From contig NZ_PGFF01000001.1 of assembly GCF_002797715.1 (NCBI RefSeq), forward strand, positions 2,999,304 to 3,063,303: a stretch of 64,000 bases of DNA, read 5' to 3'. Every line of letters begins with the position of its first letter. Within the stretch, counting starts at the first letter, position 1. The DNA comes from Diaminobutyricimonas aerilata. Its GTDB lineage: Bacteria > Actinomycetota > Actinomycetes > Actinomycetales > Microbacteriaceae. The notes below the pieces were generated by a model. It did not search any database. It was not told the DNA's origin and saw nothing but the letters and a program-made list of their open reading frames with translations. The translations under genes and the position numbers were made by a program. Of the stretch, positions 1,129-2,459 are shown piece after piece.

Positions 1129-1143
1129 CCCGCCAGCGCCGCT

Positions 1144-1171
1144 CTGCTGTGGGCAGATCTGCCCACAGCAG
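1144..1171. promoter_or_regulatory. Perfect 28-bp palindrome between fliW and clpP
   Basis: The left half CTGCTGTGGGCAGA is followed directly by its exact reverse complement, with no loop. There is no T-tract on either side, so a simple intrinsic terminator is a poor fit. It ends 41 bases before the clpP ATG. An operator for a regulator of the clpP pair is the better guess. Confidence 0.7.
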
Positions 1172-1200
1172 CATCCGTTCCCTCGCGCCGGCGGCCGACG

Positions 1201-1212: not shown

Positions 1213-1830
1213 ATGAGCGACGACACCGTACAACTCCACCCCATGGACGCCGACCTGAGTTCGCAGCTGTTCCACCAGCGCGTCATCCTGCTCGGCGCCG
1301 AACTCGACCAGAACCTCGGCAACCGGCTCGCGAGCCAGTTGCTGCTGCTCTCGGCCGACGACCCGAAGAAGGACATCAGCTTCTGGATCAACAGCCCCGG
1401 CGGCTCCGTGCCGGCGATGCTCGCGATCATGGACGTGATGCGCACCATCCCGAACGACGTACGCACCGTGGCGCTCGGCATCGCCGCGAGCGCGGGACAG
1501 TTCCTGCTCTCGGCGGGCACCCGAGGCAAGCGGTACGCGCTGCCGCACGCGCGCATCCTGATGCACCAGGGCTCCTCCGGCATCGGCGGCACCGCGGTCG
1601 ACATCGAGCTGCAGGCCGACGATCTGCGGCACACCCGCGACACCGTGCTCGCGCTGATCGCCGAGAACACCGGCCAGCCGCTCGAGCGCATCCTGCACGA
1701 CTCCGAGCGGGACCGCTGGTACACGGCGCAGCAGGCCCGCGACTACGGGTTCATCGACCACATCGTCGACAGCGTCAACGAGATCTACCCGCGCACGGTC
1801 ACGCGCGTCGGAATCGGGGTGAACGCGTGA
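1213..1830 (+). CDS. clpP: ClpP-family serine protease, catalytically intact subunit
   Basis: This 205-residue ClpP would form the proteolytic chamber fed by ClpX or ClpC unfoldases in the cytoplasm. The triad is complete: Ser93 in GIAASAG, His118 in ILMHQG and Asp167 in DSERDRW. The INSPGGSV substrate-binding loop is at residues 60-66. There is no long N-terminal propeptide. It is not in the usual actinobacterial clpP1-clpP2-clpX setting, so it is probably an accessory set, similar in kind to clpP3/clpP4 of Streptomyces. It overlaps the next gene by four bases (GTGA). The start is ATG 1213, preceded by weak GGGG and a possible leaderless promoter. Confidence 0.93.
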
Positions 1831-2459
1831 GCAGCTACACCATCCCCTACGTCACCGAACGGCGCGGCGGTGTCGAGCGCACGATGGACGTCTACAGCCG
1901 GCTGCTGTCGGAGCGGATCGTCTACCTCGGCACCGAGATCGACGACGGCGTCGCGAACGCGCTCATCGCGCAACTGCTGCACCTCGAATCCGACAGCCCC
2001 GACAGTCCGGTGAACCTGTACATCAACTCGCCCGGCGGCTCCCCCTCGGCGATGCTCGCCGTCTACGACACGATGCGGCACATCCGTCCGGAGGTGGCGA
2101 CGACGTGCGTCGGGCAGGCGGCCGGTCCCGCCGCGGTGCTGCTCGCCGGAGGAGCGTCGGGCCGCCGGGCGGTGCTCGAGCACGCGCGCGTCATCCTGCA
2201 CCAGCCCTCCACGCAAGGGCAGGGCACCATCCCCGACCTCATCATCCACGCGGAAGAGGTCGTGCGCGTGCGGTCGCAACTCGAGGGAGTGCTCGCCCGG
2301 CACACCGGCAAGGACCTCGCGACGCTCCGCCGCGACACCGACCGCGACCTCATCCTGCCCGCCGAGGCGGCCGTGCAGTACGGCCTCGCGGATGCGGTGC
2401 TCGGTGAGCGCGAGCCGATCGGCGGTTCCCTCGCCGCGGGGATGCTGACGGGGCGGTAG
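1827..2459 (+). CDS. clpP: ClpP-like subunit lacking the catalytic serine
   Basis: This 210-residue ClpP homologue is translationally coupled to the preceding intact ClpP. The fold markers are all present: [17 protein letters not shown] with His125, and DTDRD with Asp174. However, the nucleophile motif that normally reads GQAASMG is here GQAAGPA, so Gly100 stands where serine should be. The codon is GGT in clean sequence with no frameshift. By established ClpP chemistry the subunit cannot hydrolyse peptides itself. I infer a structural or regulatory role in a mixed complex with the active subunit, comparable to cyanobacterial ClpR. The GTG start at 1827 overlaps the upstream stop codon. Confidence 0.9.

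Follow-up and report, generated by a model that had tools for sequence, protein, structure and literature searches.

Dead ClpP subunits are already known: the ClpR proteins of cyanobacteria, plastids, and apicoplasts are dead ClpP paralogues in mixed Clp cores (PMC7966870), and ClpP1 of Listeria (Asp172Asn) is a subunit with an altered triad that works in a heteromer (PMC9765437). Also known is the clpP3–clpP4 operon of Streptomyces, whose product ClpP3P4 has been described as a backup protease that is made upon failure of ClpP1P2, when PopR is no longer degraded (PMC9765437, PMC12607617). Within the housekeeping ClpP1P2 of Streptomyces, the serine of ClpP2 is dispensable and that of ClpP1 essential, and the ATPases dock on ClpP2 only (PMC9765437), as do the chaperones in M. 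tuberculosis (PMC4416901).

The window, which is the whole 64-kb stretch of the Diaminobutyricimonas aerilata genome analyzed here, encodes on its forward strand a tandem pair of ClpP proteins. P1 (1213..1830; 205 aa) is a putative catalytic subunit of the ClpP1-type, with the full triad S93/H118/D167 and without an axial loop; P2 (1827..2459; 210 aa, GTG start) is a putative pseudoprotease of the ClpP2-type that reads G100/H125/D174. The stop of P1 and the start of P2 share the four bases GTGA (1827..1830, + strand), which suggests that the two genes are translationally coupled, and the same spacing of -4 is found in 109 of 156 non-redundant pairs. PF00574 is the sole Pfam match for each protein and covers its full length (208 bits for P1 and 214 bits for P2, at a cut-off of 20.2). 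The genome, a single contig of 3.49 Mb, carries four clpP genes, namely a core pair and the P1–P2 pair; no dedicated unfoldase was seen in it, the Clp ATPases found being ClpX, ClpC, and ClpB only. Between P2 and rpoC (2495-2860), a GC-rich dyad-symmetric element in two imperfect copies (gcggacttccg ... cggacatccgctc) was noticed by eye, and fliW (724-1128) has no adjoining csrA, the csrA of the genome lying ~27 kb off. The sequence-only reading had linked the pair to flagellar genes; this link has to be given up, as fliW, flgL, and rpoC are neighbors only in this genome among the accessory loci read, and the flagellar neighbors appear to be incidental.

Triad residues were assigned by aligning 352 ClpP sequences, with E. 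coli S97/H122/D171 as the anchor. P2 presents G-H-D instead of Ser-His-Asp: its nucleophile motif is GQAAGPAA, with Gly100 (GGT, 2124-2126, + strand) replacing the nucleophile Ser, and with His125 (2199-2201, + strand) and Asp174 (2346-2348, + strand) retained. The next residue, Pro101 (CCC, within GGT CCC at 2124..2129, + strand), replaces the equivalent of the oxyanion-hole residue Met98, and Pro73 (2043..2045, + strand) is equivalent to E. coli Ile70. In ClpP, the backbone NH of Met98 forms the oxyanion hole and Ile70 hydrogen-bonds the substrate backbone (PMC12383707); Pro at the Met98 position is thus predicted to remove one oxyanion-hole NH of the window P2. The exchange of Ser for Gly with His125 and Asp174 kept, already proposed from the letters of the window, is borne out by the reading frame and the anchored alignment, as is a partner with a full triad overlapping by 4 bp.

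Homologues with 53-81% identity to P2 were found in 83 of the 247 genomes sampled from the class and are common in actinobacteria; 80 of the accessory loci carry names. Among 158 distinct accessory P2s, the triad is broken in 118 and intact in 40. The broken forms differ in the residue lost: Ser is replaced by Gly in 40, by Ala in 35, by Trp in 17 (13 of these also with Asp to Thr), and by Glu in six, all of which also have Asn or His for Asp; with Ser kept, His is replaced by Gly in 13, including three named Streptomyces, and by Asp in one; and with both Ser and His kept, Asp is replaced by Asn, His, or Ser in six. Pro at position 70 (E. coli numbering) occurs in 53/118 broken versus 1/40 intact accessory P2s. 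The Gly-Pro form is common to 23 sequences (Agromyces, Gordonia, Williamsia, Cellulomonas, and Actinotalea), and Gly is fixed in nearly the whole clade of the window P2. A read error or lone mutation at Gly100 was rejected on the grounds that Gly is common to several genera; its conservation in this clade, together with the recurrence of dead triads across the family, marks it as more than chance.

Aligning homologues, as the sequence-only reading had suggested, thus showed Gly to be conserved in the clade of the window, and the coupling of a dead P2 to an intact ClpP that it had described proved to be conserved across homologues. Homologues with Ser, which it had named as evidence against itself, do occur (the 40 intact sequences), mostly in other lineages; they probably represent the ancestral state, rather than pointing to an error in the window. 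Because 40 of 158 accessory P2s keep the triad, its loss would seem not to be needed for the accessory system. Ser-His-Asp was present in all 175 aligned subunits of the P1-type, core and accessory, in 19/19 aligned rows of core ClpP2, and in 11 further core P2s taken from genomes with an accessory pair. It should be noted that in one draft assembly (genome G050), a single case, the housekeeping ClpP1 (locus L209, ~2051-2605, - strand) reads ARVLMLQPLGG, with the catalytic His replaced by Leu; the accessory P2 of this genome is likewise dead (A-T-E).

A careful tree of 82 rows, from which the triad columns had been removed, requires six changes between intact and broken states. The broken sequences fall into separate clades with good support (100/100 for His to Gly, 100/97 for Asp to Asn/His/Ser, 100/99 for Ser to Trp/Ala, 100/98 for Ser to Ala/Gly, and 97/92 for the Ser-to-Gly clade of the window); the grouping of all broken rows into one clade was rejected (p-AU 2.4e-46), as was that of all Gly rows (p-AU 1.5e-6). 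Independent of any tree, the broken triads point to at least three origins, since Ser, His, or Asp was each lost with the other two kept. Two accessory P2s with intact Ser are nested in broken clades (Cellulomonas sp. B6, L048 6001-6591, and Nocardia jejuensis, L084 6001-6588), and these may represent reversion of a pseudoenzyme. In close pairs of dead P2s, to which the analysis was confined with distant pairs set aside for saturation, group medians of dN/dS lie at 0.09-0.18, similar to those of their P1 partners. The dead P2s are under purifying selection, and dN/dS rejects P2 as a pseudogene.

The closest described system appears to be the clpP3–clpP4 operon of Streptomyces, of which the P1–P2 pair is, by sequence, the likely counterpart. 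Both have tandem ClpP1-type and ClpP2-type genes and a PopR operator, the -AA tail of PopR recurs in a PopR-like candidate encoded elsewhere in the present genome, and the P2s of Streptomyces branch within the clade of accessory P2s (100/100 against core). They differ in that the Streptomyces P2 is dead by His to Gly and the window P2 by Ser to Gly, and in that popR is adjacent in Streptomyces and the popR-like gene unlinked here. The housekeeping ClpP1P2 of M. tuberculosis and Streptomyces shares with the predicted roles of the window pair the combination of a catalytic ClpP1-type and an ATPase-docking ClpP2-type subunit, whereas core ClpP2 has Ser-His-Asp in every case read and the accessory P2 is dead. 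A likeness to cyanobacterial ClpP3/R had been put forward earlier; clpP3–clpP4/PopR of Streptomyces, with the division of labor in actinobacterial ClpP1P2, is the better match. ClpR is also a dead paralogue in a mixed core, such as we infer for the window, but probably belongs to another lineage, and the actinobacterial losses are repeated within one orthologous family. Membership of P2 in ClpR found no support, P2 grouping with actinobacterial ClpP2-type proteins in a tree without ClpR rows. In the altered-triad ClpP1 of Listeria, the triad aligns to an active one in the complex, whereas the window P2 has no nucleophile.

A predicted PopR-type operator at 1143..1172 consists of abutting palindromes (TCTGCT-GTG-GGCAGA / TCTGCC-CAC-AGCAGC) and ends 40 bp before the ATG of P1. 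It matches the family consensus at 24/24 positions and the S. lividans box at 19/24, and is the sole consensus match of at least 22/24 in the window. Nowhere else in the genome does an exact site occur; a backward control pattern matched once as well, so that chance could yield about one site per genome, and it is the position and family-wide conservation that carry weight. Across the family, an operator of at least 22/24 lies within 250 bp 5' of P1 in 123 of 156 non-redundant accessory loci, with three matches in the rest of the loci sequence; a degenerate tandem palindrome is most often found ~67-71 bp 5' of P1, and an exact copy of the S. lividans PopR box (PMC9775585) lies 5' of Streptomyces pairs. 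A strict search of 14 relatives for the exact pattern at zero mismatch mostly came back empty or with matches elsewhere, among which chance sites appear. A convergent PopR-like gene lies at most 2.5 kb downstream of the pair in 137 of 158 loci, and 126 of these 137 end in -AA. In the genome of the window, the PopR-like protein ends in ALAA, and its gene, which is unlinked to the pair, belongs to another subgroup than the pair-adjacent ones. A PopR-type box (23/24) just 5' of this gene (L255, 3066-3095) suggests autoregulation or control by ClgR. A further genome (G023) has a lone ClpP1-type gene (L252, 1919-2674, - strand) that lies beside a PopR-like gene, is accompanied by a PopR-like box (21/24), and lacks a P2 partner; its product may pair with core ClpP2.

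Conservation of the two subunits is reciprocal. Mean column entropy of the active-site region is 0.49 bits in P1, 0.68 in intact P2, and 1.04 in broken P2, in which this region has diverged to the level of an average site; for the axial loop it is 2.64 bits in P1 and 1.25 in broken P2, and for the docking pocket 1.46 and 0.91, respectively. This pattern shows, at the level of sequence, a specialization in which the active site is kept in P1 and the loop and pocket in P2. Tyr62 of the docking pocket is present in all accessory P2s and is mostly Trp in accessory P1. The window P2 has an axial loop with the conserved Pro (IPYV loop plus hairpin); the second aromatic position of the pocket, F82, is His, and docking may be altered in this protein. 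In the AlphaFold models, P2 (pLDDT 90.8) has an N-terminal hairpin, and P1 (pLDDT 89.6) starts directly with a helix and lacks it; by fold, the P2 model best matches chains from structures of M. tuberculosis ClpP1P2.

A dead P2 beside an intact P1 would fit a hetero-oligomeric Clp core in which one ring is dead. We consider it probable (about 0.72) that P1P2 is a backup Clp protease with a catalytic P1 ring and a non-cutting P2 ring that recruits ClpX/ClpC1. P1 and P2 would assemble into an accessory heteromeric peptidase of the ClpP3P4-type, in which P1 would form the sole cutting ring. The P2 ring, whose fold, axial loop, and pocket for ATPase docking are kept, would gate entry and recruit the shared ClpX and ClpC1, presumably by docking through P2 itself. 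By analogy with the ClpP2 of Streptomyces and M. tuberculosis, accessory P2 looks like a subunit that has the ClpP2 docking role and has lost an unneeded active site. Housekeeping ClpP1P2 is expected to degrade the PopR-like activator, which carries an LAA tail at its C-terminus; upon failure of the core protease, the activator would become stable and the pair would be produced. His at pocket position F82, the 40 accessory P2s with a kept triad, and the unlinked popR-like gene of another subgroup speak against this reading. Repeated loss of the active site might even be an adaptation, by which the backup resists compounds, natural beta-lactones among them, that inhibit ClpP covalently by acylating the serine of ClpP2, the recurrence then being driven by chemical warfare among actinobacteria. 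A hint in this direction is that beta-lactones are, according to a review, lethal to S. coelicolor without clpP3 and clpP4 (PMC9775585); we regard this joint reading as rather doubtful.

Other explanations of the dead P2 were weighed. That P2 is mainly a regulator, inserting into other ClpP cores (for instance with core ClpP1) and restraining or retuning them, would agree with the many losses of its catalysis and with the accessory ClpP-ADEP, which remodels ClpP1P2, disrupting ClpP1 and pairing with ClpP2 (PMC12607617). However, P1 lies directly 5' of P2 in 181 of 183 loci, with the 4-bp overlap in most non-redundant pairs (109/156), and is likewise conserved, its triad being intact, which argues for a P1P2 unit; we judge a regulator unlikely. 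Mixing of P1 and P2 inside each heptameric ring, like the plastid R-ring, has its precedent in the mixed rings of plastids (PMC7966870), but that P1 has lost loop and pocket, and P2 the active site, is in line with the separate-ring logic of ClpP1P2, and the nearest solved structures are those of M. tuberculosis ClpP1P2; this arrangement is quite unlikely.

A P2 gene decaying en route to loss would account for an active-site region that has diverged as far as an average site; against the low dN/dS medians (0.09-0.18), the intact frames, the near-fixed Gly in the clade, and the retained operon and operator, such decay is very improbable. Hardly credible is a P2 that still cuts through another nucleophile or a displaced Ser: His125 and Asp174 are kept in the window P2, but its Gly-Pro site lacks an oxyanion NH, and in other clades the Ser is replaced by Trp, Ala, or Glu, or else His or Asp is lost.

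In openly readable literature, we found no published statement on triad loss in ClpP4 and no published record of recurrent P2 triad loss. As far as this literature shows, what is new is that one orthologous subunit has lost its triad repeatedly, through different residues. The backup reading suggests that a half-dead Clp protease, as represented by the ClpR of cyanobacteria and plastids, evolved several further times within one actinobacterial family, always with the loss in the ClpP2-type subunit. The recurrent loss would be a natural repeat of the engineered Ser-to-Ala experiment in ClpP2, and the many natural variants would make the purpose of a non-cutting ring testable. For the ClpP3P4 of Streptomyces, which has been studied both as a backup and for ADEP resistance, a single working ring is predicted.
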